Under the pieces are notes generated by a model. The model was not told where the DNA came from. It was given only the letters and a program-made list of their open reading frames with translations, and made no database searches. Shown here one piece after another: positions 17,345-37,603 of a stretch of DNA of 44,797 bases (positions within the stretch are counted from its first letter, which is position 1; each line of letters starts with the position of its first letter). A program made the position numbers and the translations under genes. Origin of the DNA: a virus; IMG/VR virus record IMGVR_UViG_3300037245_001268, positions 1 to 44,797 of that record. One strand, given 5' to 3'.

Positions 17345-18136
17345 ATGCCAGATAGAGCGTTAAGAGAGGCGATTTTAGGACCGTTCGAGCGAATCGAACA
17401 GCGCAAGAAGGAAGCTCTTGATCTTGAGAAAGTTGCGGTTGAGGCTAAGCAACGCAAAGTTAAAACCATCTTTGAATTGTTTGATCGTGATGGTCAGTCG
17501 GGAGTTGATGCGTGGAATAAGGATAAGGAGTTGGTCGGGGAGTTCGGCAACTTCGAGTATCATGGCGAGTCTGAAGATAAAAAGACAAAACTCGTTAAGG
17601 GGTTTGACGAGCAAGGTCAAGATCAGTGGCAAATCTATAATAGCGAGACGAAGGAGTTTAGCTCGATCGGGTTCCCGAAGAAAGCGCAGGCAACGGGAGC
17701 GAAAGAGCCGACCGCTGGCGAAAAGACTCAACGGAAGAAGAATGTGTTTGCCATTGAATATCTTGCTCAAGGGACTTTCCCTGACAGGACTACGATGGGA
17801 ACCTTCTTGTCTACGCCGATACAGACGGAGGATGATATACTTAACACTCTGTTTGTTACAGGCGCTAACCCCGAAGACCCCGACGTACAAGCAGCTATCG
17901 TGCAGGCGTCTGAGGCTATTGCACCTCAAGACCCTGTTGAGCGCGAGAATTGGTTAAAGAGTCTTTATGCCAAATATCTGAAGGGCAAACCTGACGATGT
18001 TGACGAGATGGACGTTGAGGCGGAGACTCCTAAAGTTAACTATGCTACCATGTCGGAGGCGCAGTTATTCAGGGCCGCTCAGGGCGGAGATCGTAACGCA
18101 TACGAAGAAGCGAAGAAAAGAGGCTTGGCTAAATAA
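17345..18136 (+). CDS. Probable internal virion protein (263 aa)
   Basis: The product begins with a Lys/Glu-rich helix, has a middle section with repeated Gly/Asp/Lys turns (GFDEQGQDQWQIYNSETKEF), and ends in helical segments with SEAQLFRAAQGGDRNAYEEA. There is no membrane segment. By position between the gp7-like and the 1142-residue proteins it is the second of three ejection-type internal proteins (compare the three-protein sets of P22 and T7), though I recognise no family. The ATG follows AAGGAGGTGGTG. Confidence 0.55.
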   Translation: MPDRALREAILGPFERIEQRKKEALDLEKVAVEAKQRKVKTIFELFDRDGQSGVDAWNKDKELVGEFGNFEYHGESEDKKTKLVKGFDEQGQDQWQIYNSETKEFSSIGFPKKAQATGAKEPTAGEKTQRKKNVFAIEYLAQGTFPDRTTMGTFLSTPIQTEDDILNTLFVTGANPEDPDVQAAIVQASEAIAPQDPVERENWLKSLYAKYLKGKPDDVDEMDVEAETPKVNYATMSEAQLFRAAQGGDRNAYEEAKKRGLAK

Positions 18137-21100: not shown

Positions 21101-21564
21101 CAGATCCGGTGACTAATCGAACACTCAAAACTTTTGGAGAGAAATCTAATTTTATGGCTAATCAGCTACTTCCGCCATTGGTTCCGCCAGCGTATGCAGG
21201 CAAGAGGATTGTTTCCGCCGCAGAGGGACGTACCGACTACAATGGCGTTCCTTACGATTATTGGTGGGAGATAATGCGAAATATCTTCGGGGTCAAGACC
21301 ACGGCTTTTGTCCCACAGGTTGAGCGTCGCCGATTGCACAAACGCATCAATGGCATTGAAAGAGAATTTAATGGTCGAATGGTGGGCATCCGAAACGATT
21401 TGTCTCTTACTGTGCAGGAGAGGCAAGATGCAATGAGAGAAGAAGCTAAACGATTCAAACACGAACATCAGAAATTGATGATTGAGTTTAAGTTGCACAG
21501 AGAAACTGAACCATCACCTCCGGTAGAAGCAGAATGGGAATCGTTGCGAGATTCCTTTGATTAG
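18136..21564 (+). CDS. Large internal virion / ejection protein with WxxLxxxF repeats
   Basis: At 1142 aa this is the largest gene. The N-terminus has three copies of a W-x-x-L-x-x-x-F-E motif at residues 4-12, 20-28 and 35-43, and the C-terminus ends with a fourth, WESLRDSFD (1134-1142). Between residues ~130 and 220 lie Gly/Ala-rich hydrophobic helices (FAIPFAVGAGAA; FGVLSGLGVAG) able to enter a membrane. The remainder is long, charged and helical. This matches the largest ejection protein of podoviruses (P22 gp16 or T7 gp16 in role), which builds the DNA conduit. No lysozyme motif is evident. It closes the virion operon. Confidence 0.7.
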   Translation: MPEWDKLKDEFEPSVAKQPWGDLKSQFEPKSKLPWGKLGKQFEATIDLEPIEVIARPEKEDPHAVLSKIETIAPPESFDFIRQQYRLGKRKVMAVAEAFERGALLGYTPLTDRLFPEGFKAERPGEKFIQYPAEVAGFAIPFAVGAGAASKTGSGLLRILPWLSKVPRSARLIAKGTAIGTVLGAAEKPEEGETRLAGAARGGITFGVLSGLGVAGQKFMAKRGAKYLNKILGAADDLEGILPKTIRQAALPLTEQNAKALQVLSRLKPKEKNIVLNIVKGRRGFPVKQGQTWWEKNVGGPAYIKTIEWLNNRKSAPAEAIKKKLVFRYGQPEEWANAAENRILQIALGRDKSKAVGQLLSDSLNQHEAEMLMRDLGLKDPDLVGKIMRDTPLSVAESKRIMQMMKGGLTTGIRPDLQVRAEIARNTIDKLSAEITQMPMPDKTKQEILDNMGSYVRRFYTSKEGQSGIRKFFGSRDVKLKGKQTFLKRRAKSIKEAFVNDIAKEQAVIRQQIQQIRPKAIKGIGGIANERLKRAGLGNIQALSNATPTEVSQRLGVKMQKAEGIIMQARVAAKNERALISRSQFLDFRLKKDLARADFPAEVRKAMGEMTEAGYSTTRTINSLVHDVETSRLFDYAATNPRLSTSDPLLAAEKGWTKLSESTLLGRLSGKFVPESVADDILYIQRVTTDADRLYLKMLGAWKFAKVPLNPATHFRNLASNSMLLDFSGVPLYQQPGLVSVALEEMGSRGRWYQMAKQHGAFGGEFSQAEILDMFNKWNGTKGTMLERLVEIAGKHTGAAKIAKIYQQEEQVFKLAKFIHEMAYRGNGPGVAASEAQKWLFNYNAIPSAVKTARQAWWGSPFVTFQYKATPRVLETIVKRPLTFAKYPMLFEAVESYSIQKHGMSEKDVALAKKRRRGVIAPGLLPNFQYITPFKDKNNNVRVIDMAFTFPFGEVGEVGAFGKLMGFLGNPVLTTVIPGAQALITGEITDPVTNRTLKTFGEKSNFMANQLLPPLVPPAYAGKRIVSAAEGRTDYNGVPYDYWWEIMRNIFGVKTTAFVPQVERRRLHKRINGIEREFNGRMVGIRNDLSLTVQERQDAMREEAKRFKHEHQKLMIEFKLHRETEPSPPVEAEWESLRDSFD

Positions 21565-24976: not shown

Positions 24977-25173
24977 TGAGCGATAAAGGAATACCGATAG
25001 CTAAGGAGATGCCCCTCCGTGATTGGTTTGCGGGAAACGCCGACGAGGCGTGGAACATCTATATGTTTCTGTACGCTGATGAGCCGATGGATAGCATGAA
25101 GGGAATTGCCGCGACTATTGCTGAGATACGCTTGGCAATCGCCGACGCCATGTTGGAAGAGAGGGATATATGA
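24976..25173 (+). CDS. Hypothetical protein (65 aa)
   Basis: This small acidic protein is predicted to be mostly helical (DEAWNIYMFLYADEPMDSM; AATIAEIRLAIADAMLEER). The phrase MPLRDWFAG near residue 12 is frequent in short phage proteins of unknown function. Start and stop overlap the flanking genes by one and four bases. No function is proposed. Confidence 0.5.
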   Translation: MSDKGIPIAKEMPLRDWFAGNADEAWNIYMFLYADEPMDSMKGIAATIAEIRLAIADAMLEERDI

Positions 25174-26099
25174 GTAACCTAATAGACGCCTGTATCATCG
25201 CACGGCAAGAGCCGGTCGATACGATACAAAGCTGTAAGCAGTTGTGCGATAACATCAGATGGTTCCGCACTCCTGCGTGTCTCACGGATTACAGCGAAGC
25301 TCGGAACGAGTCTCTTGATATGTCCGATGCGAAGTTTGCACTCTGTATAGATTCTGATGAGCGTTTGGTACTCGATGCCTCCGCGACACGAATCAGGCAG
25401 ATACTCGAGAAGACAGCAGTGGAGGCGTTCCGCATACCGATCTGGAGTTGGTCCGACGATCAGCAAACGGAGTGCTCTGTCTCCTCTCCGCATCGGTTGG
25501 TGTTAAGAGAGAAGACGAAGTTCACGCGCCGTATCGGTGAGGTGCCCGCCGGCTTCGACCCGCACAAGATGGGCGAAATGAGCTTGTTTCACATCGAGCA
25601 CATGGGATACGCGAATAAGGACGTTATGCTCGAGAAGGAAAATGGGCGGGCAGAACTGTATCGCTTGCAGATACAGGAAGAGCCAAACAACATCCACGTC
25701 TGGTACGAGTACGCAAAGAGCCGTGCGTGCTGTGAGCAGTGGGCGGAAGCGATCACGGCCGGTAGGCGCACGCTGAATCTGTGCGCTCAGAAAGGCATCG
25801 AAGTTGAGAAAACTCCATACCTTGAGATGCACTACATCCTCTCGGTGTGCTACATCAAACTCGAGGACTATGACGAAGCTCTGATCTGGGCCTCTGAAGG
25901 AGTGAAGTTGAGGCCTGACTATATGGACCTGCACTCGATACTGAGTAGCGTGTACGCACACAAGGCAGAGAAGGCAGATCGTAAGCACGCCCTCGAATCT
26001 GCGAAATGGCAAGCCGAGCTTGGGTTGAGACCTTACGAGGTCATCACTGCCGGCAAGCCGATTGATCTAACTATGCGGAACGTTGGGTTGAACGAATGA
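25170..26099 (+). CDS. Glycosyltransferase (GT2-like) with C-terminal TPR repeats
   Basis: The 309-aa product opens with a GT-A-like domain: LIDACIIARQEP, the EARNESLD helix, and the metal-binding CIDSDE (DSD at residues 61-63). Residues ~140-300 form helical TPR-like repeats (WYEYAKSRACCEQWAEAI; YILSVCYIKLEDYDEALIWA; HSILSSVYAHKAE). Such GT-TPR proteins resemble SunS-type or SPbeta-like glycosyltransferases that act on proteins or glycans; the TPR part would recognise the acceptor. It opens the accessory cassette and overlaps both neighbours by four bases. Sugar donor and acceptor are unknown. Confidence 0.75.
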   Translation: MSNLIDACIIARQEPVDTIQSCKQLCDNIRWFRTPACLTDYSEARNESLDMSDAKFALCIDSDERLVLDASATRIRQILEKTAVEAFRIPIWSWSDDQQTECSVSSPHRLVLREKTKFTRRIGEVPAGFDPHKMGEMSLFHIEHMGYANKDVMLEKENGRAELYRLQIQEEPNNIHVWYEYAKSRACCEQWAEAITAGRRTLNLCAQKGIEVEKTPYLEMHYILSVCYIKLEDYDEALIWASEGVKLRPDYMDLHSILSSVYAHKAEKADRKHALESAKWQAELGLRPYEVITAGKPIDLTMRNVGLNE

Positions 26100-26611
26100 A
26101 AGACAAACCGACAGTACCGAACAAACCTGCCATTCTTGGAGTAAGCGGGGCCGTGACAACCTTTTTGAGTCCGCAGGGCTACATAGATTTATACAATCAG
26201 CTTGCGAAGAGGCTTGGACCTGTCATTGATTGTCTGACCTACCTGATGGAGAGGAGTCCGAAAACTAAATGGATTAGTTGCGATAAGTGTTCGCGGCTCC
26301 GCTATCCTACGGAAGAGAAGTGTGATTGCGAAACGACCAAGGCTGATCAGTGGACGCCGGAAGAGTTGGGGAACATGAAGGACGCGGAGCCGTTGAAGAT
26401 TAACACCATACCCCACGAAGAGATTAGCGACGCAATACTAGCCCCGTGGATTGCTGCTGCGAAAGACCCGAAGATAGCGCAGAGAATGAAGGAGCTTTTG
26501 GACGAAGAGATGAAAAAATACAGGGAGTGTGAAATCACGGTGAGAAAGTGCAAGTACTGTGGTCATGTACATACGATTCCTTTGAACTGCTGTGGAGAGA
26601 AACTGCTATGA
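26096..26611 (+). CDS. Zinc-finger-type hypothetical protein (171 aa)
   Basis: Two cysteine clusters stand out: CDKCSRLRYPTEEKCDC near residues 60-76, and CKYCGHVHTIPLNCC near 152-166. They suggest two zinc ribbons at either side of a helical middle part (DAILAPWIAAAKDPKIAQRM). The N-terminal region contains a phrase with hydrophobic helix character (YIDLYNQLAKRLGPVIDCL). No family is recognised. It lies between two glycosyltransferase genes with four-base overlaps and may be an accessory or regulatory subunit. Confidence 0.5.
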   Translation: MKDKPTVPNKPAILGVSGAVTTFLSPQGYIDLYNQLAKRLGPVIDCLTYLMERSPKTKWISCDKCSRLRYPTEEKCDCETTKADQWTPEELGNMKDAEPLKINTIPHEEISDAILAPWIAAAKDPKIAQRMKELLDEEMKKYRECEITVRKCKYCGHVHTIPLNCCGEKLL

Positions 26612-27915
26612 AAATCGTTGCGTTGTATAAGACTTTCTCGGGAGCCGAATTCGCCGAGGCCTCCGTGGAAAGCATCTATCCTTTCATGGATAAGATAGTA
26701 ATGGTTCACTCGGACGTAAGCTGGACCGGGCAGACTGGCAACACCGTCAGGCCCGCGATAGAATCTATGCCTGACCCGGACGACAAGATTATTCATATAG
26801 ACGTGTCCGTGCGGAATCAGACGGAGCAGTACGAGGCAGGGATAAGCTATATCGAGAACAACCTCAAATACGATCTCGTGATGCTCGTTGATACCGATGA
26901 GGTCTGGGATCCGTGGGAAATCGAGAAAGCCCTCAAGTTCATCGCAGACCACCCGAGCAGGTCTGCGTACATGTGTGGCATGTATATCTACATCAAGACA
27001 CCGTTTTATCGCATCGTGCCGGCAGAAGGTCGCCCCGTTATTTTCGTGCGCGATGCGAATTTGGCCCTGGAGGGGGCACGGGGCGTTGGCGTAAAGGACA
27101 AGTGCATGATGTATGACGTAAGGATGCACCACTTCACGGCGGTACGCAAGAGCATGGATGCGATCAGAGAGAAGATCATGAGCTCGTTCGTTGGCGATCT
27201 CATTGATGGTGACATACCGGAGCCGGACGTGGAGTGGTGGATAAAAGAGAAATACGACAAGCTCCCCGGAGTCACGGACTTTCACTACTTTGCGCATGTG
27301 GCGCACCTCTGGAAGTCGATCGAGAAGATATGGATTGAGGGGATCCCCGAAGCGCTCGACGGGAAGCCCATCATGGACGACTATCTACCACCGGGACTAT
27401 GCACCACGGAGGAGGAGTACGCTCTCTACACGCTATTGCGTGGGCTCCCGCACGCTGTGGAGCTCGGTACATACCGTGGGCGCATGTCTGTGGTCCTCTC
27501 TCTTGCCGTGGACGAGGTGTTCACGATTGATCTGTACGAGAAGCTGTTGAAAGAGAAAGGTCACGAGGAGGCTGCGGAGTGGTCAGACGGTACGACCGTG
27601 AAGGACGTGGCGAAGGTGTTGAATCGCTACAGCAACATAGGTTTCTTGCAGGGCTACACTCACTTGTTTGCAGGGCAGACGGAACGAACGAACGCCTTGT
27701 TCATTGATGCCGGTCACAACTATGAGAGCGTCAAGAAGGACTTTGACCACTGGTGGCCCGAGGTAGTGCAAGGCGGGTATATCATTTTCCACGATGCAGA
27801 CGGTAAGCATCACGGAGTACGTCAGGTGATTGCAGAGGCGGAGCGGGAACACCCCCTGATGGTCCGCTTGCCGAAAGCAGAAGTTGGTTCATTGGCCATT
27901 TTCGTTAAGTGCTAG
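26608..27915 (+). CDS. Bifunctional glycosyltransferase - SAM methyltransferase fusion
   Basis: The 435-aa product has two domains. Residues 1-~240 form a GT-A glycosyltransferase-like unit: MKIVALYKTFSGAEFAEASV, then VMLVDTDEVWD with the DTD motif at 95-97. Residues ~265-435 are a class I methyltransferase of the Methyltransf_24 type: AVELGTYRGR (motif I, ~284-292), then ALFIDAGHNYESVKKDFDHW and GGYIIFHDA. The methyltransferase half is paralogous to the next two methyltransferases (27926 and 29426). Linking sugar transfer and methylation in one chain suggests transfer of a sugar followed by its capping by methylation. The ATG overlaps the preceding stop. Confidence 0.8.
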   Translation: MKIVALYKTFSGAEFAEASVESIYPFMDKIVMVHSDVSWTGQTGNTVRPAIESMPDPDDKIIHIDVSVRNQTEQYEAGISYIENNLKYDLVMLVDTDEVWDPWEIEKALKFIADHPSRSAYMCGMYIYIKTPFYRIVPAEGRPVIFVRDANLALEGARGVGVKDKCMMYDVRMHHFTAVRKSMDAIREKIMSSFVGDLIDGDIPEPDVEWWIKEKYDKLPGVTDFHYFAHVAHLWKSIEKIWIEGIPEALDGKPIMDDYLPPGLCTTEEEYALYTLLRGLPHAVELGTYRGRMSVVLSLAVDEVFTIDLYEKLLKEKGHEEAAEWSDGTTVKDVAKVLNRYSNIGFLQGYTHLFAGQTERTNALFIDAGHNYESVKKDFDHWWPEVVQGGYIIFHDADGKHHGVRQVIAEAEREHPLMVRLPKAEVGSLAIFVKC

Positions 27916-27925
27916 GAGATATGAT

Positions 27926-28468
27926 ATGACAGAATCATTGGACATTGACAAAGCTGACAATCCGTGGCCTGAGCAGTACCCTGACCTGAAGCTCCCGGCA
28001 GGCTCATTGTCTAGGAAAGATGCCGAGTGCTTGCTGAAGTACAGCGACGACGTTAAACGCGTAATAGAAGCAGGCACATTCAAAGGAAGGTCGGCGGCTA
28101 TTATGTCGCTAGGGGCGGACGACGTGGTGACTCTCGACAAGTGGAATGGCAACTCAGAAGAGGATGCTCGTCGGGAGTTGGCGCGGTTTCCGAATGTCGA
28201 AGTGCTTACTCGAGACGGGCGTGATGGCCTTCATTATCTCCCGAAACCGGAACTTCTCTTCATAGACGTTCAGCACGATTACGAAGACACGATAGACGTA
28301 TTCCACGCATGGTTCAGGGGGCTCGCGGTGGGAGCGCATATCATCTTTCACGATTTCACGCAACTGTACCCGGGCGTGATTCGCGCGTTCAATGAAGTGA
28401 GAGGCCGTCGTGATATTGAGTACGTCACGACTATGGGATGGTGTGGCGTTGTGAGGAAAACGAGATGA
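27926..28468 (+). CDS. Class I SAM methyltransferase (Methyltransf_24-like)
   Basis: The 180-aa protein shows motif I VIEAGTFKGRS (46-56), an acidic post-motif VTLDKW, and the characteristic LLFIDVQHDYEDTIDVFHAW with GAHIIFHDF near residues 110-145. ATG 27926 follows TAGGAGA at proper spacing. It is a free-standing paralogue of the C-terminal domain of the preceding fusion protein. Members of this group methylate sugars and other small groups in antibiotic and glycan pathways. The stop overlaps the radical-SAM gene. Confidence 0.75.
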   Translation: MTESLDIDKADNPWPEQYPDLKLPAGSLSRKDAECLLKYSDDVKRVIEAGTFKGRSAAIMSLGADDVVTLDKWNGNSEEDARRELARFPNVEVLTRDGRDGLHYLPKPELLFIDVQHDYEDTIDVFHAWFRGLAVGAHIIFHDFTQLYPGVIRAFNEVRGRRDIEYVTTMGWCGVVRKTR

Positions 28469-29433
28469 TAGAAACCATAGAACTTCACCTGAGCAACAAG
28501 TGTACGGCTAACTGCGTGGTATGCTCGAAAGCGCACGGCGGGAACAACAGACACTTTGCAGACGTTAAGGTTCTGTGGGAAGTAGTGCGACAAGTCAACA
28601 AGATGGGGAACGAGCCTGTGATTCAGTTTGGCGGTGACGGTGACGCTTTCATGTACCCGCAATTCCTAAGCACGCTCCGCATGTTCAAAGAGGAATCGCC
28701 GGGCTGTCACCGCTGTCTTTACACGAACGGATATATGCTAGAAGGTAGTATTGCCGAACGCATCCTTTTTGAGCGTCTGCTAGATCAGATCGAGATACGC
28801 ATAGACTCTCTCGACCCGGAAATATACGAGAAAGCTACAGGCTTAGAGTTATCTCATGTGTTGGCGAACATAGACTATTTCGAGAGGTTCAACGATCACG
28901 CTGCCGTGTGCGTTCTCCACCTTCCGCTGTATCGCTACCGTGACCTATGTAAGAAGGTGCTAGGGAAAGAGCCGACGTACTGGGGCAGGTTGCAAGATGT
29001 TGAACTCAAGGATGAATGGGAAGACATACAGAGGCGCTTCGGAGGTATGGATGGTCCTCTCGGTGTCCGCACACGGCAGACAGGAATCTCGCTGTGGGCT
29101 GAGAGGATAGACTGTGAGTTCTCGCATTACCCGTGTCCGCGTCTCCCTGAGAACTGGCCCGGCGATATGTCGAGACAGATATACGTCTACCCCAATGGGG
29201 ACATCGGGTTTTGCGGATACGATGATGCTCAGTGCAGGTTCATCCTGGGGAACGTCCTCGAGGATAAGATGGTTGATGTGTGGAAATCTCAGAAGGCTAC
29301 GGGGTTTATGATGGACGTGCGGAACCGCAGTAATGGTACCCATCCGTACTGCTGCGTAAACCCCAAGGCCTGTGTGATGTGGGAATTTGACAACAACGGA
29401 GAGCCGGTAGACCCGGCTGATTTACATGGGTAA
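28465..29433 (+). CDS. Radical SAM protein with SPASM-like C-terminus (copy 1)
   Basis: The cluster motif CTANCVVC (C13, C17, C20) gives the CxxxCxxC of radical SAM enzymes, which use a 4Fe-4S cluster and S-adenosylmethionine to create a 5'-deoxyadenosyl radical. QFGGDGDAF (about residues 53-61) stands where the SAM-binding GGE motif is expected. The C-terminal third carries further cysteines: PNGDIGFCGYDDAQC, then HPYCCVNPKAC, typical of a SPASM/twitch domain with auxiliary clusters. It is a clear paralogue of the protein at 34921. SPASM enzymes often modify peptides or aminoglycoside-like sugars. The 322-aa start at 28465 overlaps the preceding stop. Confidence 0.82.
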   Translation: MIETIELHLSNKCTANCVVCSKAHGGNNRHFADVKVLWEVVRQVNKMGNEPVIQFGGDGDAFMYPQFLSTLRMFKEESPGCHRCLYTNGYMLEGSIAERILFERLLDQIEIRIDSLDPEIYEKATGLELSHVLANIDYFERFNDHAAVCVLHLPLYRYRDLCKKVLGKEPTYWGRLQDVELKDEWEDIQRRFGGMDGPLGVRTRQTGISLWAERIDCEFSHYPCPRLPENWPGDMSRQIYVYPNGDIGFCGYDDAQCRFILGNVLEDKMVDVWKSQKATGFMMDVRNRSNGTHPYCCVNPKACVMWEFDNNGEPVDPADLHG

Positions 29434-30022
29434 AGAATACATTGCATCGGATTCGTTCCACAAGCTCATGACTCCAATGCGTTCATGGGGTCGTACATGG
29501 ACTAACATAACAGAGCTTGAGGTTTTGTATAAAATGTCACAAGGAAAAAGGCTTTGCGTTGACTTGGGAACTGCTTGGGGATATAGCGCGTTTGCGATGT
29601 CTCTAGGTGCGGAGAGGGTTGTTACCATAGACTTGTTTGCACATGGAAACAAAACGATAAACGGAATTGTAGCAAACTGCAATGCTTCCGCAACGTATGA
29701 TGAAGTAAAGGAAAAGCTGAGTCCGTACACAAACATAGAGATGGTGCAAGGGCTAACTTACGAACTGCCGGAATCATGTCAGGACGTGGATTTGATTTTT
29801 ATTGATGGAAGCCATACTTATCCAGCGGTGAGGGCGGATTTTAACGCTTGGTGGCCGAGAGTGAAACAGGGCGGGTGGTTTGTTTTTCATGATAACAATA
29901 AGGTTCACCCCGGAACCCAAAGGCTTGTAAACGACTTAGCTCAGAACATAGGCGTGGTTCGGCATAAGGATAAAGAGGTATGGTCGCTGGCGGTCTTTGA
30001 AAAGGTGGACGGCAATGGGTAA
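29426..30022 (+). CDS. Class I SAM methyltransferase (Methyltransf_24-like), second stand-alone copy
   Basis: The 198-aa product shows VDLGTAWGYS (motif I, 45-54), VVTIDLF, LIFIDGSHTYPAVRADFNAW (122-141) and GGWFVFHDN, the same block order as the two methyltransferases just upstream. The DNA of this gene and the next is visibly richer in A+T than the adjacent radical-SAM gene, suggesting a separate origin. It overlaps the radical-SAM gene by eight bases and the sulfotransferase-like gene by eight. Confidence 0.75.
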   Translation: MGKEYIASDSFHKLMTPMRSWGRTWTNITELEVLYKMSQGKRLCVDLGTAWGYSAFAMSLGAERVVTIDLFAHGNKTINGIVANCNASATYDEVKEKLSPYTNIEMVQGLTYELPESCQDVDLIFIDGSHTYPAVRADFNAWWPRVKQGGWFVFHDNNKVHPGTQRLVNDLAQNIGVVRHKDKEVWSLAVFEKVDGNG

Positions 30023-31262
30023 GAAGAAACCAACAATACTTGTCCCCGTTATTTCGTGCGGTAGATCAGGTAGCCGATGGCTGATTCAGGCTATTGCCGG
30101 TCATCCTCGTTGCGTAAACGGCAGGGATGTACTTTCTCCCCCGCATTACAGAGATTTCCCTGAAGAGGATAGGCTGTCAAAGAAGATAAACGCGCTGGAA
30201 CAAATGACAACATCCGACAAAGATTCTTCCGGGGATGTCTATGTCTTCACCTATCACTTTCAGCATTGGGATAAAGGGGTGAATGATTACTTGCTCACGC
30301 AGAATACGAAAGCGATACTTCTTACGAGGAATCCCGTTGACATTACAATTTCCGTCGGGCTTGTGGAGCAGGCGGAGAAGGGCGGCGTTCCGGGGCAGGA
30401 AGCCCGTGACTTGCCGTACAGACATGACACCCTTGAGCTTGACCCTGAGAAGCTAGGGCTTTTAATTGAAGAATATGAGAGATGGTGTAAAGGGACAAGG
30501 TATCAGTTTCCGGTACTTCACGAAACATCTTACGAAGAAATGTTGCAGGAACATGATTGTATCTGGTCTGAGATTCTTGACTTCATCGGCCTTGAACACT
30601 GCGAGTTAAATTCTCCACAGAAAAGGCAGAGAACGAAATCTCGCAGAAACACCGTCACTAACTATGATGCCGTTTTGAAGTGTTTTCAGGATTCCCAATA
30701 CTCGCATTACTTTAAGGACAAAACAGACCTCGGCGAATACGACCCCGGCCCGCACTTACGGGAAGTGAGAAAGGAACACGATGTTAGCTTTTCCGAGATG
30801 CCGCTGAGGGAACTCTTGAAGAAGGCCCTGTTCGTGGATGGTCAGTGTATCCGGCGCGATGTTATTGTGCGATTCATGGCAGTTGAGCATTGGAAGGATA
30901 CAGGAAAGATTCTACCTTTGTACGAAAAGCTACAACTCTGTCGCATGGCTACGCTCGCAAAGGGGCGAGATGTTCGATATGACCCGATGCGGCTTCCTCG
31001 CCTAATTGCCAGTTTTGCAGGAATAGGATTCAATAGGGGAACTCCTATCATCCTCGGTAGGAACGAGCAGATCATAGAGGGCGCTCATCGGCTGGCGTGC
31101 TGTATGTCTTTCGGCATAGAGATAGTACCGATAGAGAATTGGTCAGACAGGAACGGTAGCAAGCACTCGACCACATGGTTCAGGGAAAACTTTACAAAGG
31201 AGGAGAATGATGTCATCACCAGACAAGAAGAAAAAATCCGCGCAGCTTTTTGCGGCAGTTAA
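30015..31262 (+). CDS. Sulfotransferase-like protein fused to a ParB-like domain
   Basis: The 415-aa product has an N-terminal sulfotransferase pattern: ISCGRSGSRWL (13-23), the P-loop-like PAPS-binding segment, and AILLTRNPVDITIS (100-113), the 3'-phosphate-binding motif. The last ~100 residues contain GTPIILGRNEQIIEGAHRLAC and FGIEIVPIE, which match the ParB/sulfiredoxin-like fold signature (EGAHR at 355-359). Such domains bind or hydrolyse nucleotides and often sit in modification systems. The combination suggests transfer of a sulfo group to a sugar or peptide with a nucleotide-binding second module, but the reaction is unproven. ATG 30015 overlaps the preceding stop region. Confidence 0.65.
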   Translation: MGKKKPTILVPVISCGRSGSRWLIQAIAGHPRCVNGRDVLSPPHYRDFPEEDRLSKKINALEQMTTSDKDSSGDVYVFTYHFQHWDKGVNDYLLTQNTKAILLTRNPVDITISVGLVEQAEKGGVPGQEARDLPYRHDTLELDPEKLGLLIEEYERWCKGTRYQFPVLHETSYEEMLQEHDCIWSEILDFIGLEHCELNSPQKRQRTKSRRNTVTNYDAVLKCFQDSQYSHYFKDKTDLGEYDPGPHLREVRKEHDVSFSEMPLRELLKKALFVDGQCIRRDVIVRFMAVEHWKDTGKILPLYEKLQLCRMATLAKGRDVRYDPMRLPRLIASFAGIGFNRGTPIILGRNEQIIEGAHRLACCMSFGIEIVPIENWSDRNGSKHSTTWFRENFTKEENDVITRQEEKIRAAFCGS

Positions 31263-31908
31263 GAAGGACATAGCGGACCTCGCCTACCCGCCGAACTACG
31301 ACTTTGACCCTGAGACCCTGAAACCTACTGGCGATCTCAAGAGACGCGTAGAGTGCCTGAACGAGACAGCCCCCGAGATGATGCAGGGATCCGGTGAGTT
31401 CCTAGACGTGGGGAGCAACAAAGGTTTTCTGCCTCTGCATCTCAGGCGGCAGTACAAGAACCTCACGGGTATCGAACCTATCAAGAAGTACGTGGACTTC
31501 TCGAAGAAACTGGTCGAGGCCCACGAGTCCAAGAACATAGATTTTCTGTGTGTGGATTGGAAGTGGTTAGAAGGCTCCGAACCGTATGATGTGGTGTACT
31601 GTGGTGGCGTGCATCATCATGGCTTCAACGATTGCGTGAAGGCCAACACCAATCCGTTCGATTTCCTATATACGGTAGCTGAGGTGGCACGCCTGATCCT
31701 CGTGATAGACGGCCCGTGGCATCTGAACAATCCTAAACACAATACGGCCGGGGCTCTGGCTGAACAGAATAAGTGGTCAGCCCATGTCAGGACTCTGTAT
31801 ACGATCGAGGAACACGCACGTTTCCTCATTAACGACTTTGAGCTTGTCCGCACAGGACCGAGCGGTACGGGTGATAGGCAGATCGTGGTGTTTCGGAGGC
31901 GGCGATGA
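31207..31908 (+). CDS. Class I SAM methyltransferase (233 aa)
   Basis: The start overlaps the sulfotransferase-like gene by 56 bases and follows AAAGGAGGAG. The product has a motif I GEFLDVGSNKGFLPL (63-77), a GIEPI acidic loop, and FLCVDWKWLEG followed by DVVYCGGVHHHG, a methyltransferase layout different from the Methyltransf_24 paralogues. Small-molecule, sugar or RNA targets are possible. The His-rich GGVHHHG may lie in the active site. The stop overlaps the next gene. Confidence 0.7.
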   Translation: MMSSPDKKKKSAQLFAAVKKDIADLAYPPNYDFDPETLKPTGDLKRRVECLNETAPEMMQGSGEFLDVGSNKGFLPLHLRRQYKNLTGIEPIKKYVDFSKKLVEAHESKNIDFLCVDWKWLEGSEPYDVVYCGGVHHHGFNDCVKANTNPFDFLYTVAEVARLILVIDGPWHLNNPKHNTAGALAEQNKWSAHVRTLYTIEEHARFLINDFELVRTGPSGTGDRQIVVFRRRR

Positions 31909-32282
31909 TGCGGGCAATAGCGCTAATCGTTAGTCACTTTCTTGGCGATTGGATATTTCAGTCAAGACGAGTAGCGGTAAATAAATCGAAGAGGTTGCCG
32001 GAAATGATTGAACACTGTCTCATAGTATTCTTCTTTGCCTATGTTGCGTTTCATGTGCCGCTTCGGTCGGCTCGGTGTGGCAGTTTCGAGTGCTACCTGT
32101 GGCCCTTGCTGTACACCTTAACCCATGCCGTTATTGACCTGACGATATGGAGGGTGTTCGGCAAGTTAATGTACGATGGTAAAATATGTAGGTCTTACGA
32201 TAACTATTGGTTTTGGTTCACGGTCGGGATAGATCAGATGTTACACATGGTCATTCTGTTTTTATTGTTGGGGGCCGAATGA
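31905..32282 (+). CDS. DUF3307-like membrane protein
   Basis: The 125-aa product begins IALIVSHFLGDWIFQSRRVAVNK, the characteristic opening of DUF3307-type membrane proteins (HFxGDW/F-xxQ followed by Asn/Lys). Three to four hydrophobic helices follow (LIVFFFAYVAFHV; LLYTLTHAVIDLTIW; FTVGIDQMLHMVILFLLL). It is an inner-membrane protein of unknown function. In a glycan cassette it might anchor enzymes or carry a lipid-linked intermediate, but this is guesswork. Confidence 0.65.
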   Translation: MMRAIALIVSHFLGDWIFQSRRVAVNKSKRLPEMIEHCLIVFFFAYVAFHVPLRSARCGSFECYLWPLLYTLTHAVIDLTIWRVFGKLMYDGKICRSYDNYWFWFTVGIDQMLHMVILFLLLGAE

Positions 32283-32545
32283 ACGCAACTGTCAATGCCT
32301 GGCGTGAGCGTGTATTCAAACGTCTTGAGTTGGAGGCGGAGGTACGGAAGCCACGACCAGGAGAGACAGACGAAGAGGCACAGTTGCGCTTCTGGGCGAT
32401 ATGTAGGACGGGACCAGGCATGGCCTCAATCGGATTCAGCACAATCATCGACAACCAAGAAGGGACAATCCGCTTCGAGCGACCCGTCACGGGCGATCCG
32501 CAGTTGATAATAATACCAAAGGATAAAGAACATGACAAAACCTAA
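32279..32545 (+). CDS. Hypothetical protein (88 aa)
   Basis: ATG 32279 overlaps the membrane-protein stop (ATGA). The product has an N-terminal charged helix (WRERVFKRLELEAEVRK) and a strand-rich C-terminus (GFSTIIDNQEGTIRFERPV; PQLIIIPKD). No family is recognised. The gene ends inside the next gene (14-base overlap). Confidence 0.5.
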   Translation: MNATVNAWRERVFKRLELEAEVRKPRPGETDEEAQLRFWAICRTGPGMASIGFSTIIDNQEGTIRFERPVTGDPQLIIIPKDKEHDKT

Positions 32546-32765
32546 AATGTTCATCTTCTCAGGCTCCAACGGTCAGGCATCGAAGTACCGTATGGAACAC
32601 GGTATGAACACTGAAGAATATCCGTTTATCGTGAGTGCCCTTACTGTTAGCGGACACAAAGGCGTAGAGCATGTGCGGATAGGTGACTGGTTTGACCGTT
32701 CAGATGTTGAGCAGATCGTTGGTGCGCTGGATTACATCAGAAGCGAGGAGGTCACGGCGGTATGA
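32532..32765 (+). CDS. Hypothetical protein (77 aa)
   Basis: The small product reads MTKPKMFIFSGSNGQASKYR, then a central VSALTVSGHKGVEHVRIGDW and a C-terminal helix (DVEQIVGALDYIRSEE). The SGSNGQ phrase is Gly/Ser-rich but not a P-loop. It is coupled to both neighbours. No function is proposed. Confidence 0.45.
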   Translation: MTKPKMFIFSGSNGQASKYRMEHGMNTEEYPFIVSALTVSGHKGVEHVRIGDWFDRSDVEQIVGALDYIRSEEVTAV

Positions 32766-33505
32766 ACAGTCAGTACACCAAAGAGGAATTAAACAAGCTG
32801 AAGGCTCAAGATAAGGAGCCTCTTGAGTTGAACATAATAGACGAGGTATCCTACTTTTCCCCAGAGACGTACAGGGCTATGGAGGCAAAGATACTCACGA
32901 TCGACATAATCATCCCCACATGCAAGCCCCTAGCAGATGTACGCCCCCTCATTGACGCCCTCGAGGACGTCACCAGTGAGCCTCACAGGATCATCGCCAC
33001 CTGTCAGCAGGTCTCGGCTGCTAAGAACCGGAACTACGGCTTAGAGATCGCAAATTCGCCTATTATCGTGATGATCGACGATGACATGCAGGGCTTCTTT
33101 AAGGGTTGGCTGAGTAGGCTTGTGGAGCCGATACAGGAAGATCATAAGGTCTGCATGGTACTGGCAAGGCTCAAGAACCCTGACGGCACTCTGGCCCCTA
33201 ACAGTGGCGACAACTACGATACGAAAGAGAAGTGGGCCTACGTCGAGAGGAAGGTACTGCCGTCTTCCGCGATCGCCATGCGCGACATAGGGCTGAGGTT
33301 TGATCCTCTGTATATCGGCTCGGGGTTCGAGGATACGGATATGTGTTTTCAGTACCATCAGAGGAGCCACAAATACGAGTTCGTCATCAATAACGAGTGC
33401 CCGCTGATACACACAAACGAGATGAAGAATCAGAAGGGCGATATTTGGGAGCATAACGAGGCTGTGTTTTTAGAGAAGTGGAATGGGAGGATGTCACCGG
33501 TATGA
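32762..33505 (+). CDS. GT2-family glycosyltransferase
   Basis: After ~45 N-terminal residues the GT-A fold begins with LTIDIIIPTCKPLADV (46-60). The nucleotide-sugar site follows: CQQVSAAKNRNYGLEIANSP, then IIVMIDDDMQG with the metal-binding DDD at 106-108. GSGFEDTDMCFQYHQ (187-200) is the acceptor-side acidic loop typical of GT2 enzymes. The 247-aa size is normal. It overlaps its neighbours by four bases. Donor and acceptor cannot be told from sequence. Confidence 0.85.
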   Translation: MNSQYTKEELNKLKAQDKEPLELNIIDEVSYFSPETYRAMEAKILTIDIIIPTCKPLADVRPLIDALEDVTSEPHRIIATCQQVSAAKNRNYGLEIANSPIIVMIDDDMQGFFKGWLSRLVEPIQEDHKVCMVLARLKNPDGTLAPNSGDNYDTKEKWAYVERKVLPSSAIAMRDIGLRFDPLYIGSGFEDTDMCFQYHQRSHKYEFVINNECPLIHTNEMKNQKGDIWEHNEAVFLEKWNGRMSPV

Positions 33506-33732
33506 GTTCAGGGATCCGCTGTAAGTGCCCAAAGGACAAACGCGATTGGGCCGTAATCGACCGTTGCTGTAACTACTCAGCGTTTAACGGGTACCGCTGC
33601 ACTTCTAGCGACTATTCCGCCGTGTTCTGTCGCACTTGCCGTTCCGTGTGGAGAACGAAAGCCGATTACGTGTTTGAGTTGCCCGACATCAGCCGGGCTG
33701 AGTTTGCAGCGGGCGGCGGGAGGATAAGGTAG
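33502..33732 (+). CDS. Cys-rich small protein (76 aa)
   Basis: ATG 33502 overlaps the preceding stop (ATGA). The product contains seven cysteines in its first ~45 residues (CKCPKDKR, DRCCNYSAFNGYRC, FCRTCRSVW). Paired CxC and CxxC sites suggest a zinc ribbon. As it lies inside a cassette with three radical-SAM enzymes, a modified-peptide precursor is an alternative, but the aromatic core and the CxxC pairing favour a metal-binding fold. The C-terminus ends AEFAAGGGRIR. Confidence 0.5.
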   Translation: MSSGIRCKCPKDKRDWAVIDRCCNYSAFNGYRCTSSDYSAVFCRTCRSVWRTKADYVFELPDISRAEFAAGGGRIR

Positions 33733-33734
33733 GT

Positions 33735-34505
33735 ATGAGAACAGATAAGGGACTCGCTCAGAGGATAGAGAACCACGACCTTGCGCTTGATGCCGGAGGC
33801 CATCACCACCCCCGCGTAACCTACACAATGACAATGGGGCGGCGGCTCGGGTTCTTCATGCGTACCATGCACACGTTCGTTGATTGCTGTCTCGATCAGG
33901 ACTTGATTAAGGAATGGATCGTCAATGACGATCGCTCGAGCCCTGAAGACCTGGCGTACATCAAAGAGCAGTTCCCCTTCCTGAAGATCGTCTCGGCAAC
34001 GAACCCGGGGCAGGCCGCGTCACTGAACAACCTCTTCGATCATGTGAATACCGAGTGGGCGTTTCATAACGAGGATGATTGGTACTATTGTCGCAAGGGT
34101 CACTTCATCCGTGAAGCTCTCGACATCGCGCACGACAATGAGCAGGTAAAGAACGTGGTACTGAGACACTGGAAGGAAGCCCCGTTTGTGAAGTCGGGCG
34201 ATCTCGAGTATCACATGCACGTCTTCGATACTCACATGGGTATGACTGAAAACGATCGTGAGCAGGCCATGAGAGCAGACCGGAGATGGTTCGGGTATTC
34301 CCTGAACCCGGGGCTTCAGCATATCCCTACAATCCGGTGGATGGGTAAGTATGACGAGAGCGCAATGACGCGTAAGTTCGATCGTGCGCTTGCGAGGAAG
34401 TATTGGCAGGGCGGGTACAGGCGTGCGAACCTGTCCGAGAAATATATGTTTCATATAGGGTGGGATCAACCCGTCAACTGGCCAGGGTCCAACGAGAGGG
34501 TGTGA
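33735..34505 (+). CDS. Glycosyltransferase (GT2/GT-A-like)
   Basis: The 256-aa protein has a GT-A pattern: RVTYTMTMGRRLGFFMRTM, then IKEWIVNDDRSSPEDLAYI with the acidic pair at 65-66, NPGQAASLNNLF, and EWAFHNEDDWYYCRKGHF with the metal-binding EDD at 113-115. A long C-terminal part with aromatic residues follows (RWFGYSLNPGLQHIPTI). GT families with NExD-type motifs include capsule and O-antigen enzymes. The stop overlaps the Dam-like gene by one base. Confidence 0.75.
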   Translation: MRTDKGLAQRIENHDLALDAGGHHHPRVTYTMTMGRRLGFFMRTMHTFVDCCLDQDLIKEWIVNDDRSSPEDLAYIKEQFPFLKIVSATNPGQAASLNNLFDHVNTEWAFHNEDDWYYCRKGHFIREALDIAHDNEQVKNVVLRHWKEAPFVKSGDLEYHMHVFDTHMGMTENDREQAMRADRRWFGYSLNPGLQHIPTIRWMGKYDESAMTRKFDRALARKYWQGGYRRANLSEKYMFHIGWDQPVNWPGSNERV

Positions 34506-34924
34506 TGAAAGATAAACCACGGTATTGGCTAACGCCACCTGATTTCTACAAGTCTTTAGATGCTGAGTTTTGCTTTGACTTTGACCCGTGCCCTTGCCCA
34601 CGGCCGGAGGGATACAACAGTCTTGATATCCCGTGGGGCCACACGAATTATGTCAATCCCCCATTTCTCAAATCCGACGCACCGCACGGAGGACCGGCCG
34701 CTTTTGCAAGGAAAGCAATCGCAGAGAGGGATAAGGGGAATACGAGCGTACTGGTACTGCCTGTGCCGTGGAGTATCCATCTGCTAATGCAAGCTAAGGC
34801 AGAAATACGATATGGAGGACAGGTACGTTGGCTGGAGGTAGACACAGGAGAACCGTGCAAGCGTAACGCCCCACAGGTGATTGCGGTCCTCCGTCCACCG
34901 AACGTCCCACAGGAGGATTCATGA
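34505..34924 (+). CDS. Phage Dam-type DNA N6-adenine methyltransferase
   Basis: The 139-aa product begins WLTPPDFYKSLDAEFCFDFD (8-27) followed by DPCPCP and then YVNPPF (49-54), the catalytic D/NPPF/Y motif of N6-adenine methyltransferases. This is the compact phage Dam family (PF05869-like), usually around 150-180 aa. It would methylate adenines in phage DNA and so guard against restriction. It is the only clear DNA-modifying enzyme in the cassette. ATG 34505 overlaps the preceding stop; the stop overlaps the next radical-SAM gene. Confidence 0.8.
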   Translation: MKDKPRYWLTPPDFYKSLDAEFCFDFDPCPCPRPEGYNSLDIPWGHTNYVNPPFLKSDAPHGGPAAFARKAIAERDKGNTSVLVLPVPWSIHLLMQAKAEIRYGGQVRWLEVDTGEPCKRNAPQVIAVLRPPNVPQEDS

Positions 34925-35862
34925 ATAACAAAATAAAAGAGATCGAGCTAAACTTCGCCAACAAGTGCGGAGCGAACTGCATGATCTGTAGCAAGGTCCG
35001 GGGCTCCCTGAACATCCCCTTGATGACAGAGGACGTATTCTTTTGTGCGCTCACACAACTGCATCATGTGGATTTCGAGACCATACAGACCTCCGGCAAT
35101 GGCGATGCGTTCATGAACCCGAACTTTCTCCCGTGGGTGCGTCGACTCCGTGGCGACTTCCCGAACAAAAAGATATGTTTCTACTCGAGCTTTGCGCCGA
35201 TGACGAAAGAAAGGGTAGATAGAATCGTGCGGGAGCAACTGTTCGATGAGGTCTACACCCGCTTGGATTCTCTGGACCCCGGAATCATCAGCGCAATCTC
35301 ACAGGTAGACGGGGTAGACGTCCTCAGCAACATGAGCTACTTCGCGGAGGCCGATCGCCGTAGCTGTAAATTCGTCATCGGATACTCGAGTTTGCCTGAC
35401 TATTACTCTTTATGTCGCAAGGTCTTACACAAAGAGCCTTTACATTCAGTGTTTCAGCCCTGGGAGATCGAACTTATTAAGCGGGATGAATACCCGGATA
35501 TACTTGAATACTTCCAGGGCTTGACGCTGCGTGGACCGCTACAAGTGTACCGAATCAATCAGAGTTTGTGGGCCGAGCGCATGGATCCCGACACGCCTGA
35601 CAATCCTCTATACCCATGTCCGAAGATGGAGAGTAACCTGCTCAACAACATCATCTGGATATGTCCGAACGGTGACGTCGATGCGTGCGGGTATGATGAC
35701 ACGCAGAAGAACCTTGTCTACGGGAACATCCTTCAGAATCACATGCTTGATCTCTGGAACGGTGACGATCGCAAGGACATGCTTCAGCGGATACATCACA
35801 GGAAGATTACGGGGTATCCTTGCGCGAATCCTGAGTGCTGCGTTATGAAAGGAGTGGATTGA
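34921..35862 (+). CDS. Radical SAM protein with SPASM-like C-terminus (copy 2)
   Basis: CGANCMIC (C16, C20, C23) is the radical-SAM cluster site. The protein aligns by eye with copy 1 (28465): IELNFANKC with IELHLSNKC; SGNGDAF with GGDGDAF; RLDSLDP with RIDSLDP; LCRKVLHKEP with LCKKVLGKEP; SLWAERMD with SLWAERID; CPNGDVDACGYDDTQ with PNGDIGFCGYDDAQC; and a Cys-rich end with CANPECCVM. The auxiliary-cluster region is therefore conserved. The two copies lie 5.5 kb apart in one operon, suggesting duplication and separate substrates or steps. Confidence 0.82.
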   Translation: MNNKIKEIELNFANKCGANCMICSKVRGSLNIPLMTEDVFFCALTQLHHVDFETIQTSGNGDAFMNPNFLPWVRRLRGDFPNKKICFYSSFAPMTKERVDRIVREQLFDEVYTRLDSLDPGIISAISQVDGVDVLSNMSYFAEADRRSCKFVIGYSSLPDYYSLCRKVLHKEPLHSVFQPWEIELIKRDEYPDILEYFQGLTLRGPLQVYRINQSLWAERMDPDTPDNPLYPCPKMESNLLNNIIWICPNGDVDACGYDDTQKNLVYGNILQNHMLDLWNGDDRKDMLQRIHHRKITGYPCANPECCVMKGVD

Positions 35863-36107
35863 TGGAAGACAGGAAACTAGAAGCTGAACTATTGAGACGG
35901 TTTGAGGTGGCATTTCCGGGGAGCAACCCTGTCATGCTTGCCTATGACTACGGAGACCAATGTGCAATCGGCCTCTATCCGTATAAACGAAAAGATCGGA
36001 AGAGTGGCAGAGACTTGACTTTCCAGACGTTGCAATTTTCCATCGAACCGGATCAGATGGCCAGTGAGAAAGATCGCGTCCATTCTGCTCTAGGGTTAAA
36101 ACAATGA
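35862..36107 (+). CDS. Hypothetical protein (81 aa) between two radical-SAM genes
   Basis: ATG 35862 shares a base with the preceding stop. The product has an N-terminal helix (EDRKLEAELLRRFEVAFPGS), a strand part (PVMLAYDYGDQCAIGLY) and a Lys/Arg-rich loop. Its place between two radical-SAM genes resembles that of a peptide substrate or partner, but it looks like a globular protein with a single Cys and no leader/core boundary. No family is recognised. Confidence 0.45.
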   Translation: MEDRKLEAELLRRFEVAFPGSNPVMLAYDYGDQCAIGLYPYKRKDRKSGRDLTFQTLQFSIEPDQMASEKDRVHSALGLKQ

Positions 36108-37120
36108 TAACCCCAACCCCTACCGACCGCGCCGTCTGTGATCCCTCGAGGAAATGCAACATCCGGTGCAAGTTCTGTTATTACAAACTCAAGGACTTGG
36201 AATCTGTGGAACCGTGGGAGGTCGCCAAAGATCAGATCGACGGTGCCAAGGCACGCGGTAACAAGCACATCACCGTAACCGGCGGCGAGCCGACCATGTA
36301 TCCTGAGATCGTGCGCCTGGTGAAGTACGTCCGCAAGCAGGGGATGTCCTGCGAGATCATCACCAACGGAGTCGCCAGCATCAAGAAAATCGAACAACTC
36401 GTGGATGCCGGCGTGACGGATTGGCTTATGTCCATGCACGGAACTGCTAGCATACACGATAAACTTGTCGAACTCCCCGGTGCTAGGAAATTACAGGCGC
36501 GAACTATCTTGACCATTGGAGACTCTGCGAACATACGAGCTAATTGCGTTGTGAACCGTCTGAATCAAGAAGACCTAATTGATTACGCAGATATGATTCT
36601 GAGTTGGCGCGAGTATATTACCGCAGTAAACTTTATCAACTTCAACCCACACCTAGGCTTCGGGTGGGACGAGAACAAAGCAGAATCCATGAGCGTGATT
36701 GCAAACCTACGGTTCGTTGAGCGGATCCTGCCGGATGCGATTGGATTGCTCGAGGAGTACGGCATCGGCGTGAACCTGAGATGCTTCCCTATGTGCATGG
36801 TTGCCGAGCAGTACCGGCGTTGTGTTTGTAACTGCCTTCATGTTTTGTTCGATCCGTGGGAGTGGGATTATTGCATCGAGAAAGACCTCACCACCTCGAT
36901 TGAGTGGTGTCAACTGAACTCACAGAAAACAGAGTGCAAGGAAAACCCCTGCGACAAGTGCGACCTGCTCTTGATCTGCGGTGGTATCAATCGAGTGTTC
37001 AATCAATTCACTGATGGGAAGATGATAGATGCGGTGACGGACTTCGAGGGAGACAAGGCGGACTTTTACTGGTACCGGGGACACAACGAAATGACGTTGG
37101 CCCCACAGAAAGGGAGGTGA
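36104..37120 (+). CDS. Radical SAM protein (third, divergent)
   Basis: CNIRCKFC (C18, C22, C25) and TGGEPT (59-64) are textbook radical-SAM cluster and SAM-binding motifs. The middle has SMHGTASIHDKL and a fold like MoaA/PqqE-type enzymes. The C-terminus has many cysteines (CVCNCLHV, CIEKDLTTS, TECKENPCDKCDLLLICGG), in keeping with a SPASM-type auxiliary-cluster domain. Unlike copies 1 and 2 it retains the canonical GGE motif, so it is a different subfamily. It ends the enzyme cassette. Likely reactions are oxidation, epimerisation or carbon-carbon bond formation, but the substrate is unknown. Confidence 0.85.
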   Translation: MITPTPTDRAVCDPSRKCNIRCKFCYYKLKDLESVEPWEVAKDQIDGAKARGNKHITVTGGEPTMYPEIVRLVKYVRKQGMSCEIITNGVASIKKIEQLVDAGVTDWLMSMHGTASIHDKLVELPGARKLQARTILTIGDSANIRANCVVNRLNQEDLIDYADMILSWREYITAVNFINFNPHLGFGWDENKAESMSVIANLRFVERILPDAIGLLEEYGIGVNLRCFPMCMVAEQYRRCVCNCLHVLFDPWEWDYCIEKDLTTSIEWCQLNSQKTECKENPCDKCDLLLICGGINRVFNQFTDGKMIDAVTDFEGDKADFYWYRGHNEMTLAPQKGR

Positions 37121-37123
37121 CGT

Positions 37124-37603
37124 ATGAAGTATCTGAGGTTGTTGTTTGTGGTGGCGTTGCTGTGTGTAGGGGCGGTGGCCCTGGCGCAAGGCGTTGTCGC
37201 GCCTGACGCTGAGGTACAGACGTACCCGTTGTGGGTTGTGATCTTGGTAGCGATCATCCCCGTGATTACCACGATCTTAGAACGCTCCGGGAAGAAAGAC
37301 CTGATGAAAAAGCTGAAAGGCGCTATGGAGGTCGGGCGAACCGTGTTCGCTGCGATTGAGGAGTCCGAGTCAGTCGCGCCAAAGGTGTTGGTTAAAGAAG
37401 CGATGGAGGCGGCGTCTACGTCCAACGAGGCAAAGGAGATAAACGAAATCCTCCACACCATCACCGATCCAAAGAGAAGGATGGCGGCAGATGTGCCACC
37501 CATCAAACGTTTTTGGCGACGGATGCTGAGAGGTCAGAACCTTGCCGGCGTCGCGCTCCGCATCGGTGGACAATCAGCAATCGAAGGCCTGCTGAAAGAC
37601 TAA
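37124..37603 (+). CDS. Exported/membrane protein with signal-like N-terminus (159 aa)
   Basis: The product starts with a signal-peptide-like segment (MKYLRLLFVVALLCVGAVALAQG), followed ~12 residues later by a second hydrophobic helix (WVVILVAIIPVITTIL) and then a soluble Lys/Glu/Ala-rich domain of ~110 residues. It is a membrane-anchored protein of holin- or spanin-like size. Such layouts are known from phage lysis and superinfection proteins, but I recognise no family. AGGGAGGTGACG gives a strong ribosome site. Confidence 0.55.
   Translation: MKYLRLLFVVALLCVGAVALAQGVVAPDAEVQTYPLWVVILVAIIPVITTILERSGKKDLMKKLKGAMEVGRTVFAAIEESESVAPKVLVKEAMEAASTSNEAKEINEILHTITDPKRRMAADVPPIKRFWRRMLRGQNLAGVALRIGGQSAIEGLLKD

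Follow-up and report, generated by a model that had tools for sequence, protein, structure and literature searches.

The DNA analysed here (the window) is the virus record IMGVR_UViG_3300037245_001268, 44,797 bases in length. The subject of the analysis is a cassette of 18 genes on its + strand, at 25170–37120, that encodes glycosyltransferases (GTs), methyltransferases, radical S-adenosylmethionine (SAM) proteins and a sulfotransferase. The cassette covers 11,951 bases, or 26.7% of the genome. With improved start codons, 13 of its 17 junctions are overlaps of 1–8 bases; of the other four, two are gaps (2 and 10 bases) and two are longer overlaps (14 and 53 bases). An earlier description made from the sequence alone (the sequence-only reading) had reported about 17 genes in a row, nearly all with overlaps of 1–8 bases, filling over a quarter of a podovirus genome. 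The run and the fraction hold, the count is 18 and four junctions depart from the reported overlap.

The window ends in a 127 bp direct repeat, identical at both ends as expected for a circular or complete assembly. Matches to P22_portal (E = 2.6e-81) and Phage_capsid_3 (E = 1.4e-21) were obtained, an Hc3 head-closure protein and a DNA-ejection protein are also encoded, and these genes span 4.2–17.3 kb. The virus is a P22-like podovirus, in agreement with the earlier assignment to the podoviruses.

Enzymes encoded in the cassette

Glycosyltransferases were recognized by PF00535 in the products of 26608–27915 (E = 1.9e-5) and 32762–33505 (GT3, GT2-type; E = 7.5e-9) and more weakly in that of 33735–34505 (GT4). 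The first is a GT2 domain with a DTDE motif fused to a Methyltransf_24 (MT24) domain (PF13578, E = 2.6e-15), which forms the C-terminal half and shows FIDAGH and FHD motifs; its start at ATG 26608 agrees with that of a homologue in the viral record IMGVR_UViG_3300033145_000260 (L013). GT4, with an EDD motif, is a probable GT-A glycosyltransferase whose PF00535 match (E = 6.4e-4, or a single-genome E of 8.3e-6) is below the cut-off by either value. A fourth candidate, GT1 (25170–26099), is a tetratricopeptide repeat (TPR) protein (TPR_2, E = 2.6e-6) with an abbreviated GT2-like N-terminus. It matches PHROG 13126 (beta-1,4-glycosyltransferase, E = 7.5e-10) mainly in the C-terminal, TPR-side part of that family. 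Aligned with phage GT-TPR proteins, GT1 appears to lack the N-terminal nucleotide-binding half, and phmmer gave no significant match between it and these proteins; its catalytic competence is doubtful. Three of the four GT-A-type domains counted previously were therefore retained (GT4 below the cut-off), and the fourth was not, as only the TPR half of GT1 scores.

All four class I methyltransferase domains of the sequence-only reading, one of them fused to a GT, were recovered. Besides the fusion, two MT24 proteins are encoded, MT_B (27926–28468; PF13578, E = 7.4e-12) and MT_C (29426–30022; PF13578, E = 1.5e-16), together with the class I SAM methyltransferase MT_D (31210–31908; Methyltransf_25, E = 5.9e-7). 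The MT24 family matches overlap TylF and rhamnosyl/CmcI sugar O-methyltransferases, and the cassette methyltransferases resemble enzymes of this kind.

The three radical-SAM proteins reported earlier were confirmed by PF04055 and SPASM matches and by the paralogy of two of them. Protein 1 (28465–29433; PF04055, E = 2.1e-10; PF13186, E = 1.9e-6) has a CX3CX2C motif. Protein 2 (34921–35862; SPASM, E = 1.5e-5) is 39% identical to it and retains both this motif and the SPASM domain; the auxiliary-cluster cysteines are common to the two proteins in the alignment. Protein 3 (36104–37120; PF04055, E = 2.3e-18) has a C-terminal cysteine cluster, and its best NCBIfam model is HxsC (E = 1.5e-19), far below the cut-off of that model. 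None of the cassette radical-SAM proteins, 2 and 3 included, reached the cut-off of a curated NCBIfam peptide-maturase model. Structure prediction, proposed in the sequence-only reading as a check, gave a radical-SAM fold for protein 1 (predicted local distance difference test score 55.6). Its substrate class cannot be read from the fold, because the nearest solved structures are mixed (SuiB, DesII, EpeE, viperin and BtrN).

The product of 30015–31262 is a sulfotransferase (PF00685, E = 3.4e-8) with motifs resembling a site for 3′-phosphoadenosine 5′-phosphosulfate (PAPS), GRSGSRW and RNPVDITIS. The ParB-like part of the fusion suggested earlier is a weak C-terminal match (PHROG E = 0.015–0.05), and the predicted structure of this protein was uninformative and unusable. 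The membrane protein noted earlier is a DUF3307 protein (31905–32282; PF11750, E = 1.2e-10), by hydropathy the only cassette protein with hydrophobic helices. The gene at 34505–34924 encodes a probable phage-type Dam DNA N6-adenine methyltransferase, as previously proposed, although the match (PF05869, E = 1.1e-5) is under the Pfam cut-off; it likely stands outside the glycan pathway considered below.

Five small open reading frames (ORFs) lack a family match. The product of 26096–26611 (171 residues) has CX2C pairs that look zinc-ribbon-like by eye and matched neither Pfam nor PHROG; that of 32279–32545 (alternative ATG 32279) had no significant Pfam match. The 77-residue product of 32532–32765, the cysteine-rich product of 33502–33732 (alternative ATG 33502) and that of 35862–36107 (alternative ATG 35862) gave no Pfam match. 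Third-position G+C ranges from 0.48 to 0.69 among the cassette genes. It is low in MT_C and the sulfotransferase gene (0.48 and 0.53), and likewise in the fibre-like and ejection-like genes of the window at 12315–15521 and 18136–21564 (0.44 and 0.49, against 0.6–0.69 in most of the genome).

No sugar-nucleotide synthesis gene, flippase, polymerase, ligase or membrane GT was recognized in the cassette, and neither was a GtrA flippase or a membrane-anchored GtrB of the gtrABC type. Since DUF3307 alone is hydrophobic, the simplest reading of this gene set is a soluble pathway that uses host donors.

The cassette lies within a + strand gene run from 21.8 to 40.7 kb, framed by one promoter-like site (21,652) and one terminator-like site (40,784). 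Only the outline of the operon was used, because such matches occur at close to chance frequency. Genes for a PD-(D/E)XK nuclease, RecT and RusA are found at 22–25 kb and a DnaD-like gene at 39.6–40.7 kb. The immediate flanks of the cassette are RusA on one side and, on the other, a two-helix membrane protein, possibly a holin (37124–37603); no lysin was recognized among the window proteins scanned. Elsewhere in the window, an HNH endonuclease gene with a helix-turn-helix (11539–12315), likely a homing endonuclease insertion, overlaps the end of the Hc3-like head-closure gene by about 200 bases.

Relatives in other viruses

Relatives were sought with a profile of the three MT24 domains, which gave hundreds of viral matches; 80 loci were kept. 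The best-matching locus, L013, carries the GT-MT24 fusion (about 62–64% identity), MT_B (60%) and radical SAM protein 1 (63%) in the same order as the window. In L013 this module immediately follows an HK97-type capsid gene and two more GT genes; the fragment ends inside the radical-SAM gene. The window phage instead has a P22-like portal and Phage_capsid_3, and since the gene order is nevertheless the same, the module has been kept together and has passed as one unit between unrelated phages. A GT-like protein of L013 (3174–4268) has two copies of a repeat of about 50 residues at its N-terminus and no Pfam match; the repeat may tether the enzyme to the capsid.

The gene combination recurs in many viruses. 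GT-MT24 fusions are frequent in other loci (proteins of 391–981 residues), GT2 genes are present in 26 of 45 records and a sulfotransferase gene lies 1–2.3 kb from MT24 in four records. Where radical-SAM and MT24 genes occur together (six other records), they are at most 3 kb apart in four, against 1.7 expected (P of about 0.03); L013, the top match of the search, is one of the four, and P = 0.037 without it. When 114 genes adjoining viral MT24 were tallied, GT2 was the commonest family and several head proteins were present, with small numbers per family. Scans of viral contigs with single proteins (sulfotransferase, radical SAM protein 3) or small alignments (radical SAM proteins 1 and 2, GT-MT24) returned nothing or only L013. 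No bacterial relatives were found in two scans of genome contigs, and GT1, GT4, the sulfotransferase and radical SAM protein 1 had no tblastn match in isolated phages.

Radical SAM protein 3 did have tblastn homologues, in Campylobacter phage CP220 (25% identity over 85% of the length) and in HTVC008M and SynMITS9220M01. The proteins of the last two are annotated as hypothetical but are radical-SAM proteins by Pfam, and their genes adjoin those of methyltransferases and GTs, close to genes for UDP-glucose dehydrogenase or the heptose pathway. These marine-phage neighbourhoods link the radical-SAM component with sugar cassettes, and not with peptides or with bases. The CP220 homologue, regarded as neutral, has a thymidine kinase-like gene as its neighbour; genes for deacetylases and an epimerase lie some kilobases off.

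The records were then searched for capsid genes of three families, and eight records other than the window gave a recognizable one. MT24 is located 0.9–4.0 kb downstream of it, on the same strand, in all eight. The eight are partly dependent (G008, G027 and G033 are alike, G009, G028 and G045 probably so, and some are short). With L013 and a single long record for each P22-like group, the chance product is about 0.005, a rough guide rather than a formal test. In L048 and L065 the capsid gene and one small gene precede a TPR protein gene and MT24, after which come two GT8-like genes and the head-completion genes; the GT8-like assignment and the GT-like C-terminus of the TPR protein were made by eye. 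With L019, these are P22-like phages whose portal and capsid are related to those of the window, and in all three the TPR, MT24 and GT8-like genes occupy a constant site at about 7.7–12 kb between capsid and head-completion genes. MT24 comes after the coat gene in L020, L032 and L049, and in the last of these it is fused to a GT.

Fibre-like and repeat proteins are also found beside the relatives. In record G015, two structural-looking genes, neither of which matched a named family, are separated by an inserted 13 kb set that comprises several GTs, two MT24 genes, an epimerase, a radical-SAM gene and an asparagine-synthase-like gene. A few kilobases upstream of this set is a protein of over 1000 residues made of Ser-Pro-Ser-x repeats (L030, 320–3427; L122, 1–about 2050), with 54% Ser+Thr over 80 residues, a plausible mucin-like candidate for an O-glycan acceptor. 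In L050, genes for a GT-TPR protein, a radical-SAM protein and a GT-TPR-MT24-GT protein stand just before that of a collagen-like protein (12760–15462) with Gly-Tyr-Thr/Gly-Ala-Thr (Gly-x-Thr) repeats. L056 and the cultivated phage S-SRM01 combine GT-MT24, a sulfotransferase and a long fibre-like gene.

Two records related through TerL, G001 and G002, carry radical-SAM genes in the vicinity of TerL; they were rejected as support, as theirs is a different, Clostridium-like set without GT2-MT24. In G001, a radical SAM/SPASM gene of this Clostridium-like phage (L108, 13631–15593) has as its neighbour a GT-like gene, similar by eye to TET-associated glycosyltransferases; the two are possibly a DNA-modification pair.

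Proposed function and its alternatives

The cassette may encode a soluble, cytoplasmic pathway that makes or completes a glycan on an acceptor of phage origin, most likely virion proteins (capsid, decoration or tail-fibre proteins). This is the preferred reading, although our confidence and our doubt in it are about equal. The GT2-type transferases would add sugars drawn from the host nucleotide-sugar pool, the three MT24 enzymes and the fourth methyltransferase would methylate or cap hydroxyls, and the sulfotransferase would add sulfate using host PAPS. The SPASM radical-SAM pair and radical SAM protein 3 might change a sugar carbon (by epimerization, deoxygenation or oxidation) or pre-modify the acceptor residue. 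A particle coated in this way with methylated, sulfated glycan would be recognized differently. Each chemical step is proposed from family membership; virion proteins are the proposed acceptor because the relatives lie behind capsid genes and beside Ser- or Thr-rich repeat proteins.

Several observations weigh against this assignment. The window cassette is 16 kb from the capsid gene, not beside capsid or fibre genes, and shares its operon with recombination and replication genes, a setting more in keeping with early expression than with expression alongside the virion genes. Among seven window proteins checked, no strongly Ser/Thr-rich repeat protein was found as a candidate acceptor. The GT-TPR protein, otherwise the best candidate for a protein glycosyltransferase, looks truncated. 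Finally, no chemistry can be assigned to the radical-SAM proteins, as enzymes acting on peptides, sugars and nucleotides all occur among their family and fold matches and the structural models are of poor quality.

The operon setting also fits remodelling of the host surface, in which the enzymes would act in the infected cell on precursors of O-antigen, capsule or exopolysaccharide, so that the receptor is altered and rival phages are kept from superinfecting. Early action suits such a role, GT clusters with radical-SAM cassettes in pelagimyophages have been interpreted in this way (PMC7029224) and genes typical of lipopolysaccharide, for UDP-glucose dehydrogenase and the heptose pathway, are present in the cultivated analogues. 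The cassette, however, has no recognizable GtrA-type flippase, polymerase, ligase or membrane-anchored GT, and the position of MT24 and GT genes behind the capsid gene in relatives is unexpected for an early surface change; we regard this explanation as plausible though rather unlikely. It is improbable that the phage picked up these metabolic genes as a loose set without a joint product, even though for most of them the collections searched yielded no close relative and their third-position G+C is uneven. The sequence-only reading had held that genes failing to co-occur in relatives, each with its nearest homologue in an unrelated context, would be a random collection. They do recur together in other viruses, and both this and the three-gene synteny with the unrelated phage L013 (about 60–64% identity), as well as the tight overlaps, argue for a unit.

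The sequence-only reading had left the product open between a glycan, a radical-modified peptide and a modified nucleobase, on the virion, the DNA or the host surface. A glycan on the virion or host surface is favoured by the present analysis and the other two products are disfavoured. SPASM domains, which are frequent in peptide maturases, are present, HxsC is the best model for radical SAM protein 3 and several small ORFs could suggest maturation of a small ribosomal peptide by the radical-SAM/SPASM proteins, with tailoring by the GTs, methyltransferases and sulfotransferase. Since no curated maturase model was matched above its cut-off and the related cassettes pair radical SAM with GT and sugar-pathway genes, this is distinctly improbable; a precursor-like repeat, a protease and an exporter were not recognized either. 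Least probable is hypermodification of phage DNA, in which the GTs, methyltransferases and radical-SAM enzymes would decorate bases to evade restriction. The probable Dam gene in the operon, the CP220 relative of radical SAM protein 3 and the DNA-glycosylating phage GTs cited in PMC12619734 are in its favour. However, thymidylate synthase/hydroxymethylase (PF00303) had no match in the genome even at E = 1, hence no hydroxylated base is apparent for glycosylation. TET/JBP oxygenases were absent from the Pfam matches of the scanned proteins, no separate search being aimed at them. The methyltransferases, moreover, resemble those that act on sugar hydroxyls, and the relatives accompany capsid, fibre and sugar genes rather than nucleotide metabolism.

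Comparison with described phage systems

Virion glycosylation in mycobacteriophages was reportedly demonstrated by Freeman et al. in 2023. In Che8 and Rita, glycans are carried on the major capsid and tail-tube proteins, according to PMC11256854, PMC13313380 and PMC12619734. Like the window, these phages encode GTs, and some phages thought to glycosylate their virions likewise carry a methyltransferase with the GTs (PMC13313380). They differ from the window in being long-tailed, in having GT genes unrelated to those of the window as far as tested and, by the account of these papers, in having no radical-SAM or sulfotransferase genes involved. Placement of GT and methyltransferase genes beside virion genes, supportive rather than defining for Che8-type systems, is absent from the window and present in the eight other capsid records.

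Pelagimyophages have been described with GTs together with radical-SAM cassettes (PMC7029224), and runs of several GTs, radical-SAM proteins and methyltransferases are common to these cassettes and the window; the location in a tail-fibre or host-recognition region that marks this type of cassette is absent from the window. In HTVC008M (gp156–gp164) and SynMITS9220M01 (203–212) GT, radical-SAM and methyltransferase genes adjoin one another as in the window. Unlike the window phage, these are large myoviruses with their own sugar-precursor genes, and no MT24 or sulfotransferase was noted in these stretches. S-SRM01 (NC_070963, 226–240 kb) shares the GT2-MT24 fusion and the sulfotransferase in an overlapping gene run, which ends in a probable virion adhesin. 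In contrast to the window, no radical SAM was recognized in this stretch, 2-oxoglutarate-Fe(II) oxygenase and RCC1 genes are present and the GT half is of a different subtype.

The earlier suggestion of an undescribed system is thus too strong, as mycobacteriophage virion glycosylation (cited in PMC11256854) and the pelagimyophage cassettes (PMC7029224) are published. Glycan-decorating phage cassettes are known; three radical-SAM proteins with a sulfotransferase in so small a genome are apparently new. In the open-access literature searched, no 45 kb podovirus was found described with a compact set of this kind (three radical-SAM proteins, a sulfotransferase and three MT24 domains), and the regular placement of MT24/GT genes close behind capsid genes of several families was not found described either. 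We tentatively propose, at the speculative end of these readings, that the window phage places a sulfated, O-methylated glycan, with sugars or acceptor altered by dedicated radical-SAM enzymes, on its own capsid or fibres, and that the cassette belongs to a widespread, mobile, capsid-linked class.

To our knowledge, proof of virion glycosylation exists for only a few phages. That a transferable cassette combines GT, methyltransferase, radical-SAM and sulfotransferase genes, and that its relatives lie repeatedly behind P22-like and HK97-like capsid genes, suggests that chemically elaborate glycan coats may be widespread among environmental phages, and the cultivated phages with analogous cassettes allow direct testing. 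If true, adsorption, immune recognition and stability of the particles would be affected, and the radical-SAM/SPASM enzymes would gain a new kind of substrate.

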